Assembly: GCA_003166865.1 (NCBI GenBank)
Contig: PMUP01000097.1
Location: 225,798-289,797, forward strand
Reading direction: 5' to 3'
DNA: 64,000 nt
Source of the DNA: Bryobacterales bacterium
GTDB lineage: Bacteria; Acidobacteriota; Terriglobia; Bryobacterales; Bryobacteraceae
Notes under the pieces: model-generated
What the model was told of the DNA's origin: nothing
What the model saw: the letters and a program-made list of their open reading frames with translations, nothing else
Databases searched by the model: none
Shown: in pieces, positions 12,994-16,182 of the stretch
Layout of the letters: each line of letters starts with the position of its first letter
How positions within the stretch are numbered: the first letter of the stretch is position 1
Made by a program: the position numbers and the translations under genes

Positions 12994-13164
12994 ATGAGCC
13001 CACAAAACTTCACGTTCATGTTTTATGGCTTCACGGTCGCCTGGCTCATCATCATCGGCTATGTGATCTCGATTGCCGTGCGCGAAAAGAAGCTCCGCCA
13101 GGAACTCGATCGCGTGAAGCGCATGGTTGAGGAAAACGAGCAAGCTAATACGCGCCGCCAGTAA
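12994..13164 (+). CDS. ccmD: CcmD-like small membrane protein
   Basis: 56 residues: a single membrane helix (FMFYGFTVAWLIIIGYVISI) followed by a charged cytoplasmic helix (REKKLRQELDRVKRMVEE), the usual form of CcmD, which stabilises the CcmABCE complex. AGGAG at 12981-12985 serves as the ribosome binding site. The family is defined mainly by position after ccmC, which is fulfilled here. The last 20 bases overlap the convergent gene at 13145. No ccmE, ccmF or ccmH follows. Confidence 0.8.
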   Translation: MSPQNFTFMFYGFTVAWLIIIGYVISIAVREKKLRQELDRVKRMVEENEQANTRRQ

Positions 13165-14086
13165 TTGCTTGGACGAAAGCCCGCGGGATCGGCCATGCCC
13201 CGTACACTTGTCGCTCGCTGCGGTGGAATGTTCCCGCCACTAAAACACCGCTCAAGTCATCTGGATCGGGCTTTCGATTCACCTTCGACAACACTTGGCG
13301 CAGCGCATTGGTGGTGGCCTCGAACTGAGTCAGCAAGGCGGACGCCGCGGTCGCGTCCCTGCATGTGACGTGAACTCCGAGTTGCAATTGCTGAGCCGGA
13401 TCTACACCGATACTGAATACAATCTGCTCCGCTCCTTGCAAGGCCGGCATGTACGCTTTTGCGGCCGCCGGCAAGTCGTCCATCTTTTGAAGGGCGCCAG
13501 CCGGGATGATCGCCCACACTGGCTCCTGCGGCGGCGCCAACGCCAGTTTTTTCGACGCACTCGTAATCTGATACGCCGCGAAATCGTCTGGGCTGATCGC
13601 CATTGCCATCACGTCGTGCTGCAAGGGATAAAACGAAATCCGGCGATTCGGCTGGCTGCCTGCGACCACGCAAAAATCACCGTGACACGATCCGCCCTGC
13701 CGCCCCGCGTAGTCCTTCAGATCCTTCCAATGAAAGCGCCCGCGCAGAGCGAGGTAAACCTTGCCGTCCTTGAAGGCCGCGGCAATTGCGTCCAAATCTT
13801 GACGATAGTCGAACTTCGTTTCTTTCACAAACTGCCGATAATCGGCATCTTCGACGGCCTTGGAGCCGGCCACCAAGTTGAGAATCCCGGACCGCCGCAT
13901 CGCATCCACGTCGATGTACACCACGCTCGCATTGGACGTGGGCAGCAGCAGCACCAGGTTGCTGGGCAGCGCCGCGCTGTGCGTTCGATGAAACCAATAA
14001 ATGCCGCCACCGGCCGCAAGCGCGCACGCCGCCACCAATAACGCTACAACCTGCCGGAGCTGGGGGCGGGCGATGGCTACAGGCAC
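13145..14086 (-). CDS. Membrane-anchored secreted protein of unknown function, cotranscribed with aroF
   Basis: 313 residues. A basic N-terminus (PVAIARPQLRQ) is followed by one hydrophobic segment (VVALLVAACALAAGGGIYWF) and a globular extracytoplasmic part with conserved-looking patterns such as SNASVVYIDVDAMRRSGIL and WAIIPAGALQKM. Similar proteins occur in Acidobacteria as uncharacterised proteins; I do not recognise a named domain. The GTG start comes one base after the aroF stop codon (TAA-C-GTG), so it is almost certainly in the aroF transcript and would share its attenuation control. It overlaps ccmD tail to tail by 20 bases. Confidence 0.65.
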   Translation of the reverse strand: MPVAIARPQLRQVVALLVAACALAAGGGIYWFHRTHSAALPSNLVLLLPTSNASVVYIDVDAMRRSGILNLVAGSKAVEDADYRQFVKETKFDYRQDLDAIAAAFKDGKVYLALRGRFHWKDLKDYAGRQGGSCHGDFCVVAGSQPNRRISFYPLQHDVMAMAISPDDFAAYQITSASKKLALAPPQEPVWAIIPAGALQKMDDLPAAAKAYMPALQGAEQIVFSIGVDPAQQLQLGVHVTCRDATAASALLTQFEATTNALRQVLSKVNRKPDPDDLSGVLVAGTFHRSERQVYGAWPIPRAFVQAITGGAY

Positions 14087-14087
14087 G

Positions 14088-15128
14088 TTATACCGCCGCG
14101 GCGGCCTCGGTCACGCGCGATTCTTTCCACAGATCGATGTACGGACCCAGCGATCGCATCATGGCCTGAAATTGCGGCATATCCAGCGATTGCGCGCCAT
14201 CGCTCATCGCCTTTTCGGGCGCCGGGTGTACTTCCACAATCAGCCCGTCAGCGCCAATCGCAACAGCCGCGCGCCCGAGCGCCGGAACCAGGCTGCGCTT
14301 GCCCGTGGCATGACTCGGGTCCAGGATCACCGGCAAATGTGTAAGTTCGTTGAGCACCGCCACGGCCACGATGTCGCACGTATTGCGCGTCACGGTTTCA
14401 AACGTCCGGATTCCGCGCTCGCACAGAATCACGTTCGGATTGCCGTGCGCCACCACGTACTCCGCCGACATCAGCAGCTCCTTGATCGTCGAGCTCATGC
14501 CGCGCTTCAGTAACACCGGCCGGCTGCACTTGCCAAGCGTTTTGAGCAGCGCGAAATTCTGCATGTTGCGCGCGCCGATCTGCAGCACGTCGGCGTAATC
14601 CGCCACCAGGTCCACGTCGCGATCGCTCATCACCTCGGTGATGATGGCGAGACCGGTGGCGCGCTTCGCTTTGGCCAGCAGTTTCAGGCCTTCCTCTTCC
14701 ATCCCCTGGAAATCATAGGGCGACGTTCGCGGCTTGAATGCTCCGCCCCGCAACAGTTTCGCGCCCGCTCGCGCCACGCCCTCGGCCGCTTGCATGATCT
14801 GCTTCTCGGATTCCACCGAGCACGGCCCCGCCATCACGACGAACTCGTCGCCGCCGATTTCGCAGCCGTCCACGCGAACCCGCGTGCGCTCGCTACGGTA
14901 CTCCCTGCTGACAAACTTGTAGGGCGCCGAGATGCGGACCGCCTTTTCCACTTGCGGCATCGCCTCCACCGATTCCAGGCACGCCGTGGTGTCTCCCGTG
15001 CCCACCGCGCCGATCACCACGCGTTCCTCGCCCTCGATGGCGTGAATCTTATAGCCGAAGTCCCGAATACGCTCGCACACTTGCTCGATCTCTTCTTTCG
15101 TCGAGTGGAGTCTCATCGAGATGATCAT
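14088..15128 (-). CDS. aroF: 3-deoxy-7-phosphoheptulonate synthase (DAHP synthase, type I-beta)
   Basis: 346 residues. The enzyme condenses phosphoenolpyruvate and erythrose 4-phosphate, the first step of the shikimate route to Phe, Tyr and Trp. An N-terminal ferredoxin-like regulatory domain (about 1-70, [19 protein letters not shown]) precedes the TIM barrel with [43 protein letters not shown] and the metal-binding DPSHATGKR. The N-terminal domain gives allosteric feedback in known relatives. The start ATG has GAGGAG eight bases upstream. The 5' region holds an aromatic-rich leader peptide and attenuator (15150-15274), so expression is likely controlled by aminoacyl-tRNA supply. Confidence 0.95.
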
Positions 15129-15149
15129 CGTTCTATCTCCTCAAAAATG

Positions 15150-15172
15150 AAAAACCCACTCTTTCGAGTGGG
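15150..15172 (-). terminator. Attenuator terminator in the aroF leader
   Basis: On the minus strand CCCACTC-GAAA-GAGTGGG is a perfect 7-bp stem with a GAAA tetraloop followed by TTTTT, an intrinsic terminator. It sits 22 bases before the aroF ATG and about 50 bases after the leader peptide stop codon. Since it would end transcription before the gene, it acts as an attenuator. Its 5' arm can pair instead with GAGTGG at 15207-15212, forming an antiterminator. Confidence 0.85.
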
Positions 15173-15206
15173 CCGCTTTTGCTAATCAGTATTGCCTAAG
15201 CCAACG

Positions 15207-15212
15207 CCACTC
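15207..15212 (-). promoter_or_regulatory. Antiterminator arm of the aroF attenuator
   Basis: Minus-strand GAGTGG, lying between the leader peptide stop and the terminator, is complementary to CCACTC of the terminator's 5' arm, so the two stems exclude each other. A neighbouring GGCGTT can pair (with one G-U) with AGCGCC at the end of the leader coding sequence, which gives the protective 1:2 hairpin of classical amino-acid attenuators. Confidence 0.7.
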
Positions 15213-15220
15213 GCCCCGAT

Positions 15221-15274
15221 TCAGGCGCTAAACCAGTACCAAAATCGAAACGAGTTGTGGGCGCTACGACGCAT
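15221..15274 (-). CDS. Aromatic-rich leader peptide of aroF
   Basis: 17 codons and TGA: MRRSAHNSFRFWYWFSA. Six of seven consecutive codons encode Phe, Trp or Tyr (F, F, W, Y, W, F with one Arg), which is far from chance composition and matches leader peptides of trp, phe and related operons. Ribosome stalling here when charged aromatic tRNAs are scarce would free the antiterminator arm and let transcription enter aroF. It is the sensor of the attenuator rather than a functional protein. Confidence 0.82.
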   Translation of the reverse strand: MRRSAHNSFRFWYWFSA

Positions 15275-15282
15275 GAAGCCCC

Positions 15283-15311
15283 AGTATATGCGCAACCCCG
15301 TGCCCAGCGCA
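15283..15311 (-). promoter_or_regulatory. Candidate promoter of the aroF leader
   Basis: TATACT (-10, minus strand 15288-15283) with TTGCGC 18 bases upstream as a weak -35. The hexamer ends eight bases before the leader peptide ATG, so the transcript would start within one or two bases of that ATG. Inferred from sequence only. Confidence 0.5.
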
Positions 15312-15312
15312 A

Positions 15313-15336
15313 GGCAGGCAGACCTAAGTGCCTGCC
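15313..15336. repeat. Inverted repeat between vapC-like gene and aroF leader
   Basis: GGCAGGCA, eight-base loop, TGCCTGCC: a perfect 8-bp hairpin 22 bases after the toxin gene's stop on the minus strand. There is no T-run, so it may be a transcript-end stabiliser or a factor-assisted terminator separating the toxin pair from aroF. Confidence 0.5.
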
Positions 15337-15360
15337 CGCGTTCTAAAAGCCCGCGTTCTA
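15334..15360. repeat. Direct repeat copying the vapC-like stop codon
   Basis: GCCCGCGTTCTA occurs at 15334-15345 and 15349-15360 (period 15). On the minus strand both copies start with TAG, and the upstream one is the actual stop codon of the toxin gene. Confidence 0.7.
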
Positions 15361-15897
15361 TATAAGTGACCCGCACCGGATCAGCTCCAGCGGACCCAGA
15401 CCGGGGAACCGCTTGGGCGACAGTTCAATGGCGCTCCGTATCGGCTCGAAATCGGCGGCGTTGTTGTGGATGAGGGGCATTTTCGCTACCAGAGCGGTTG
15501 CCGCTATCATTCCATCGAACCGCCAACGGGCCAAGCGCTCCTGACGAGACTCAGCCATTTGATGAGACCGCCGGGGCGGCGTGGGAGGATGGGGCAGCAT
15601 GGCCATGATTTCGCCGGCTACCACGGCCACAGCCCCATCCAACGGCCACACCGGACCGACCGCATTGAGATAGTCGATCCGGGCCGCCTCGATACGCTCG
15701 CGCCGTTCCTGGTGGGCACGCCGCGACAAAAGACTGTAGCCCCGAACTCGCTCGACAAGTGTGACTGCGGATATGTGGATCGGATGATGCGACAGGTACG
15801 CACGCATCCAGCGTGAAAATTCGGAATCCTCTGGTCGCTCCAACCAACTCTCGGCGCTAGTATCGAATAGAAATGGCCCAGACGCGGGATCGATCAC
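15358..15897 (-). CDS. PIN-domain protein, VapC-like toxin
   Basis: 179 residues with the PIN ribonuclease pattern: N-terminal FLFDTSAES (first acidic residue), a middle acidic region, DGMIAATALV (third acidic position) and LIHNNAADFEPI near the end. PIN toxins cut RNA with a metal ion held by these acidic residues. It is somewhat longer than most VapC proteins because of an insertion around residues 105-120. It starts with GTG three bases after the antitoxin-like gene, the standard order antitoxin then toxin. Confidence 0.82.
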   Translation of the reverse strand: MIDPASGPFLFDTSAESWLERPEDSEFSRWMRAYLSHHPIHISAVTLVERVRGYSLLSRRAHQERRERIEAARIDYLNAVGPVWPLDGAVAVVAGEIMAMLPHPPTPPRRSHQMAESRQERLARWRFDGMIAATALVAKMPLIHNNAADFEPIRSAIELSPKRFPGLGPLELIRCGSLI

Positions 15898-15900
15898 GAA

Positions 15901-16182
15901 TCAGCGCCTCGGGGTAGGTTCAAGAACAATGCCGTCAAGAAGCGCCCTCTCCACTTCGGTGAAGCCAGAAAATGCCTTCCTGTATGCGCTGAGTACTTCT
16001 TCACTGCGCTGAGTCGCCGCATGCACACGTAGGCCCTCGGAAAGTGCTTCCGAAATAACCGTGCTGAGGGTACACTTTCTGGCGCGGGCGATCCGCTCTG
16101 CTTGCGTGAGCGAGTCGGACGGCAGGGTCAACGTAGTCCGCCGCTTCTTGATCTGGCTCCGACGCCGGCCACTTTGGTTCAT
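15901..16182 (-). CDS. Ribbon-helix-helix antitoxin-like protein
   Basis: 93 residues: a basic N-terminus (SGRRRSQIKKRRTTLTLP, a beta-strand pattern of RHH proteins), then two helices (DSLTQAERIARARKCTLSTVISEALSEGL). Such proteins bind DNA as dimers and neutralise PIN toxins through a C-terminal tail. The gene lies directly upstream of the PIN gene on the same strand with a three-base gap, which strongly suggests a toxin-antitoxin module that represses itself. Confidence 0.75.
   Translation of the reverse strand: MNQSGRRRSQIKKRRTTLTLPSDSLTQAERIARARKCTLSTVISEALSEGLRVHAATQRSEEVLSAYRKAFSGFTEVERALLDGIVLEPTPRR

Follow-up and report, generated by a model that had tools for sequence, protein, structure and literature searches.

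Upstream of aroF, on the minus strand of the 64,000-nucleotide stretch of DNA that was analyzed (the window), lies what is very probably a ribosome-mediated transcription attenuator, which would sense the supply of charged tRNA-Phe, tRNA-Trp, and tRNA-Tyr and set the transcription of aroF. Judged by its sequence and that of its relatives, it is built like a trp/phe-type attenuator whose aromatic signal is a mixed one, and it is spread through the Terriglobia. The short open reading frame (ORF), its codons, the terminator, the antiterminator, the codon-to-arm spacing, and the position of the -10 box all recur when related genomes are compared. A mixed Phe/Tyr/Trp attenuator for aroF had been proposed in the first-pass annotation of this DNA; leader conservation, the co-occurrence of the three residues, and the covarying arms support that proposal, with a protector partner different from the one it had named. 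The features are collected in Table 1.

Table 1. Features of the aroF attenuator and adjoining genes (positions in the window)
Feature	Position	Strand	Basis or remark
Possible weak -35, TTGCGC, 18 nt before the -10 box	15307..15312	-	sequence and relatives
-10 box TATACT, ends 8 nt before the leader ATG	15283..15288	-	sequence and relatives
Leader ORF MRRSAHNSFRFWYWFSA + TGA, 17 codons, probably leaderless, no Shine-Dalgarno; ATG at 15274, TGA ends at 15221	15221..15274	-	sequence, relatives
Segment 1, protector, 5' part of the leader, stretches 15266-15260 and 15255-15242, pairs with segment 2	15242..15266	-	minimum-energy fold
Regulatory codons F R F W Y W F	15230..15250	-	last (F15, TTT) starts 22 nt before segment 2 GTGG
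Segment 2, antiterminator 5' arm CGAGTGGCGTTGGC; GAGTGG at 15212-15207	15200..15213	-	pairing, covariation
Segment 3, shared by the antiterminator (3' arm) and the terminator (5' arm), AGCGGCCCACTC	15166..15177	-	pairing, covariation
Segment 4, terminator 3' arm GAGTGGGTT, runs into T-rich tail	15153..15161	-	hairpin, covariation
aroF, DAHP synthase (3-deoxy-7-phosphoheptulonate synthase), N-terminal ferredoxin-like domain	14088..15128	-	PF00793 and PF18152; NF006421 above cut-off
Uncharacterized protein, GTG start at 14086, one base past the aroF stop; possibly same attenuator	13145..14086	-	

The comparison covered the DNA upstream of aroF in 130 genomes of the same class (Terriglobia); a search of 299 genomes supplied its 30 top matches, and another 100 places were selected from the same ranking. 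Added to these were 79 usable loci of named species (one of 80 was without a gene start), nine of them close and 70 distant; some named loci are the same sequences as others in the set (e.g., L007/L158 and L005/L169). A leader was scored as an ORF of 8 to 40 codons with at least five F/W/Y in eight codons, lying within 300 nt before aroF. Aromatic leaders were found at 85 of the 130 loci, compared with two on the reverse strand and 0, 1, 0, 2, and 0 in five dinucleotide shuffle sets. Six of the nine named close relatives carried one, against none in the same controls, and the distant named loci gave 10 of 70 (two on the reverse strand, zero to two in shuffles). At this threshold, 45 of the 130 genomes have no leader, close aroF relatives among them; lowering the requirement to four aromatics and searching 330 nt still left 29 of 139 loci (the 130 plus the nine named close relatives) without a candidate.

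The ORF rich in Phe, Trp, and Tyr upstream of aroF has the coordinates and codon content given to it in the first-pass annotation, with three F, two W, one Y, and one R in seven codons, and the codons proved to be conserved in relatives when this was checked. The three residues occur together in 77 of the 78 leaders that have a strong terminator (W in 78, Y in 77), with means of 3.0 F, 2.2 Y, and 1.7 W per leader. Among 60 leaders, the last aromatic codon is F in 33, Y in 17, and W in 10, while W is the commonest residue at the second-last aromatic position (31 of 60). A leader that senses mainly one aromatic amino acid, Phe for example, with the others as bystanders, as reported for Corynebacterium aroR, would fit the rank of F as both the commonest residue and the commonest last aromatic, and the passage on aroR in a review states that it responds to Phe and not to Tyr (PMC11802643). 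Nevertheless, the presence of W and Y in practically every leader and the frequency of W at the second-last position make such a single sensor rather unlikely here.

The terminator has the position and form already proposed for it: a perfect hairpin, GGCCCACTC-GAAA-GAGTGGGTT, at 15174-15153, which starts 46 nt behind the leader ORF and is followed by a T-rich tail. A terminator scan returned three sites (2.9 in shuffles), one of which is this hairpin. Strong hairpins with a T-run were detected at 101 of the 130 Terriglobia aroF loci, compared with two to three in each of five shuffle sets. The reverse strand gave 37 strong terminator-like sites in 130 loci, which we provisionally regard as these hairpins seen in reverse, their flanks being A-rich.

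Pairing of the GAGTGG arm with the first arm of the terminator, also part of the original proposal, holds across relatives. The region around and behind the stop codon pairs with the terminator first arm (2:3 pairing) with a median of -19.2 kcal/mol, compared with -12.0 kcal/mol when shuffled (78 loci); z was below -2 at 58 of the 78 loci and in 19 of 24 representatives sharing less than 70% identity. Taken by itself, the window gives no significant pairing (z = -1.6, with 8 of 100 shuffles no less stable); the weight of this pairing comes from the relatives. The typical arm, GAGTGG-C-GTTGG with one unpaired base, stands opposite CCAA/CCAG-CCCACTC. Covariation was assessed in 44 distinct GAGTGG-type sequences chosen from 61 that match a broader pattern, and both helices were found to covary, so that the compensatory stem changes expected in relatives are present. 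In the antiterminator, 90.5% of cells are paired (slid controls 29 to 47%), six of 14 pairs show two-sided changes (a level attained in 3 of 500 shuffles), and the covariation score was reached by none of 500 shuffles; in the terminator, 99.7% of cells are paired. Beyond the terminator stem, the antiterminator has five pairs, columns 11 to 15. Two-sided changes are seen in 12 and 13 sequences at columns 13 and 14, but 10, 18, and 22 of the 44 sequences do not pair in columns 13, 14, and 15. By eye, the arms have also changed together in diverged lineages (L186, L187, L196, L203, and L156).

The protector is the part of the original proposal that had to be replaced. It had been placed at the leader end, where an AGCGCC would pair with GGCGTT; this pairing is possible, but 20 of 200 shuffles of the stretch pair equally well and it is not conserved. 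Across 59 loci, the stretch from the last aromatic codon to the arm pairs with the arm no better than its shuffles (medians -7.5 and -7.5, z below -2 in three), and a protector at the leader end was rejected as a conserved part. The absence of any protector, also considered, was overturned by folding the whole leader. The minimum-energy fold of the window uses another AGCGCC, near the leader start, together with ACTCGTTTCGATT at the start of the aromatic run, both paired with the segment 2 arm. The leader-plus-arm fold has z = -3.4 against dinucleotide shuffles in the window and a median z of -1.9 over 78 leaders, with z below -2 in 38. The mean probability of the arm being held is 0.80, compared with 0.60 in shuffles, and in 25 of the 78 leaders it was matched by three or fewer of 60 shuffles. 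The energy of the 1:2 duplex has z below -2 in 20 of 78 leaders, and 1:2 is stronger than 2:3 in 11 of 78. Protector pairing of the leader with segment 2 is thus found for the leaders as a set and is not convincing in some lineages.

If the protector hairpin were incidental, the device would be a two-way switch in which an untranslated leader leaves aroF on. The lack of conservation of the leader-end pairing and a 1:2 probability about as in shuffles or lower in L149, L163, and L186 would suit such a switch. Against it, shuffling synonymous codons with the peptide kept left the real fold better than the shuffle mean in 63 of 78 leaders and 22 of 24 representatives (z below -2 in only 23 of 78; in the window, 7 of 100 such shuffles are as stable as the leader fold), and we regard an incidental protector as unlikely.

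The leader also has the look of a leaderless ORF, as far as the position of its -10 box and the missing Shine-Dalgarno can indicate. Starts were analyzed in 93 leaders, named close relatives among them, that have five or more aromatics; in 78 of these, a single ATG is possible. In these 78, TANNNT ends 6 to 10 nt before the ATG in 68, compared with 19 of 825 other nearby ATGs; the gap is 9 nt in 35 and 8 nt in 18 of the 68. A Shine-Dalgarno-like 4-mer precedes only two of the 78 leaders, compared with 112 of the 825 control ATGs and 71 of the 78 aroF starts of the same loci, and pyrimidines make up 63 to 86% at the four bases preceding the leader ATG. At least three of six matches to TTGACA at 16 to 18 nt were found for 74 of 79 leaders, compared with 55 of 140 control TANNNT sites. 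A promoter scan at its own threshold called no site at the leader promoter region.

Recurrence of the R-F-W motif in many leaders, seen by eye, would be expected of a nascent-peptide arrest switch of the TnaC type, in which a conserved F-R-F-W peptide halts the ribosome upon binding a free amino acid. We consider this very improbable, since F, W, and Y replace one another at each aromatic position, the last included, and conservation concerns the residue class and, for most lineages, the spacing. Constraint is also seen at the nucleotide level: The Ser codon preceding the aromatic run is TCG in 36 of 46 cases, whereas TCG accounts for 15 of 136 other Ser codons in leaders and 96 of 291 at the aroF start. 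That the hairpin merely ends an upstream transcript and the ORF arose by chance is hardly credible, for although intergenic intrinsic terminators are common and the upstream gene (15358-15897) is on the same strand, ORF and hairpin recur together (a strong terminator lies behind 78 of 87 leaders and in 9 of 28 loci without leader), a -10 box lies between that gene and the ORF, and the antiterminator pairs outside the terminator stem covary.

Two further codon biases were noted. CGA makes up 54 of the 96 leader Arg codons that precede an aromatic, compared with 36 of 460 Arg codons at the aroF start, and TTT makes up 191 of 235 leader Phe codons, compared with 41 of 132 at the aroF start. Pairing of CGATT with a later AATCG was tried as the cause and rejected, the partner being present in only 12 of 48 CGATT leaders; such pairing does not account for most of the bias.

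From this anatomy, we propose the following sequence of events for the attenuator. Transcription would probably start at or within about two bases of the leader ATG, so that ribosomes would load on the 5' end of the RNA without a Shine-Dalgarno. When any of the aromatic tRNAs is short, a ribosome would halt in the F/W/Y run, cover segment 1, and leave segment 2 free. Lying just past the front edge of the ribosome, segment 2 would pair with segment 3 (GAGTGG.GTTGG with CC..CCCACTC), so that the terminator fails and aroF is read. When all three tRNAs are plentiful, the ribosome would run over segment 2, to the stop codon near or beyond it, the 3:4 pairing would form, and transcription would end. 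Without a ribosome, or after its release, segment 1 would hold segment 2 and the terminator would form. Once segment 4 is present, the minimum-energy fold contains the terminator at every ribosome position modeled, and antitermination would therefore have to be kinetic. Before segment 4 is made, the RNA beyond a ribosome on F15 folds as 2:3 (-16.5 kcal/mol); with the ribosome at the stop codon instead, the arm is shortened but still forms 2:3 (-12.9 kcal/mol). The arrangement suggests how a single RNA may let all three end products jointly set the entry into aromatic synthesis. The principle is ordinary and the surprise moderate; what the family offers is a gene, a likely signal, and a testable mechanism across a class of bacteria.

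The distance from the codons to the arm bears on how the leader would be read. At 60 loci with a recognizable arm, the last aromatic codon lies 18.4 ± 2.9 nt before it (22 nt in the window; r = 0.94 over the loci), while the stop codon shifts over 34 nt. Random re-pairing gave a mean spread of 11.1 and never less than 8.0 in 5,000 trials, in permutations that ignore shared ancestry. This strict test left out 50 of 110 loci, which do not match its patterns. With arms defined by pairing, the median aromatic position has a spread of 6.8 nt at 78 loci, compared with 13.6 nt when permuted, and of 8.1 in the 24 representatives, compared with 13.9 (lowest of 5,000 permutations 8.3). In 10 of the 24 representatives, fewer than 15 nt separate the start of an aromatic codon from the arm. 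The spacing rule is thus sharp only in lineages with the GAGTGG-type arm and looser in diverged ones. A ribosome with a stop codon in its A site is described as covering up to 12 nt beyond that codon (as stated in the relevant passage of PMC4833913), so that the front edge of a ribosome sitting on the last aromatic codon would stop shortly before the arm. In L145, L149, L152, L153, L118, L124, and L139, the stop codon is found past the arm, through which the ribosome would have to translate; lineages with displaced stop codons amount to natural experiments on what the attenuator needs, namely the codon-to-arm spacing.

One broader reading of these data is a Terriglobia-wide attenuator family that acts as a three-way aromatic OR-gate, with leaderless ribosomes reading it. 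What is conserved would then be a ruler that places the last aromatic codon about 18 to 19 nt (one ribosome front) before the arm, and not the stop codon; where the stop lies behind the arm, the gene would be switched off by translating through the switch. We hold this reading tentatively, at a little under an even chance, a rating that was lowered because of the 10 representatives that breach the ruler.

The enteric trp and pheA attenuators have four RNA segments with 1:2, 2:3, and 3:4 pairing, and their leader ORF begins with a ribosome binding site. The Terriglobia leader resembles them in having a leader ORF with regulatory codons and four RNA segments. It differs in that the enteric attenuators sense one amino acid whereas this leader has three residues and no Shine-Dalgarno, in that segment 1 lies no later than the start of the codon run, and in that the stop may lie before, near, or behind segment 2.

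Judged by the passages available from their sources, the nearest described relatives that we found are Corynebacterium aroR and Acholeplasma uORFC-13-1. The Corynebacterium glutamicum system likewise has a leader peptide with aromatic codons (Phe-Tyr-Phe) before the DAHP synthase gene aroF and works by attenuation (Neshat et al. 2014, as described in PMC11802643 and PMC4046766); it belongs to another phylum, no Trp codon is named in those passages, and the likeness is one of working. The former text also mentions the trpL and pheL leaders of enteric bacteria (PMC11802643). In Acholeplasma, uORFC-13-1 similarly combines an upstream ORF with a terminator before aroF, but Phe is the residue named, and the passages on it describe 24 examples, only from Acholeplasma and environmental sequences (PMC8632094). 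Streptomyces lividans leuL, trpL1, and ilvL are attenuator ORFs that have no 5' untranslated region, as is proposed for the present one; they are from Actinobacteria and concern leucine, tryptophan, and branched-chain genes, and the word DAHP is absent from the text as available (PMC8079986). An Rfam cmscan of 14900-15600 with E up to 10 returned no amino acid leader or T-box, its two matches being to other families and far below the cut-offs. No paper on an aroF leader in Acidobacteria was found by titles and abstract openings among the best matches in the open-licence literature.

A near-exact pattern of arm plus terminator was found once in each of 37 of the 299 genomes, compared with zero for a control pattern. 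Thirty of these 37 loci were fetched: 28 have aroF behind the pattern, and L233 has the first 21 codons of aroF at a contig end. The seven remaining loci adjoin, just before, the aroF places from the genome search. The locus L240 has no tblastn match; behind its attenuator pattern, an aroF-like start that breaks off after 20 to 30 codons can be recognized by eye. A complete aroF, whose terminator has diverged, is present in the same genome (G112) at L135, and L240 is a second attenuator copy. Other loci look like possible decayed attenuators by eye: L103 and L173 keep a terminator-like hairpin, with leader and T-run absent, and L121 has hairpin and T-run without a leader. In L138, a stop codon lies mid-run (by eye).

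In the genome of the window itself, the regions upstream of two further DAHP synthases, a more distant fourth match, a trpE-trpG-like fusion, and pheA were inspected and gave no aromatic leader, apart from two aromatic stretches that lie well upstream inside longer ORFs, one before L242 and one in L244. The latter (L244:360-389) is the nine-codon MFRWERWWA with three Trp codons, about 400 nt before the trpE-trpG-like gene and inside another ORF. Both stretches are probably due to chance. One of the further DAHP synthases precedes a prephenate dehydrogenase-like ORF (by eye).

Around the attenuator, two sets of neighbors can be described. The protein encoded at 13145-14086 has zero matches to Pfam and NCBIfam models. 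Leaving aside the record that holds the window, it has 25 matches spread over no more than 24 genomes (L110 and L220 being one), and all 25 start within about 200 nt behind aroF, judged from coordinates; co-transcription of this gene with aroF, under the attenuator, is plausible. On the other side, directly upstream of the attenuator, a PIN-domain protein (PF01850) is encoded at 15358-15897 on the same minus strand, with a small ORF (15901-16182) just upstream of it, also on that strand. No counterpart of this pair was found in the other fetched loci (2,500 bases searched). We take the layout of the pair to resemble that of a VapBC toxin-antitoxin pair.

In other classes of the phylum, candidates appeared at 3 of 19 usable places under the 5-of-8 threshold, compared with one on the reverse strand (20 places were fetched, and the gene start of L265 was not placed); two of the three have a terminator behind them by eye. 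Aromatic leaders of other design, several with a Shine-Dalgarno, were also seen by eye at distant named loci (e.g., L012, L017, L023, L043, L063, and L080). Two of these, L012 and L017 (Syntrophaceae and a delta-proteobacterial record), have a leader before aroF with two tandem terminator-like hairpins (by eye).
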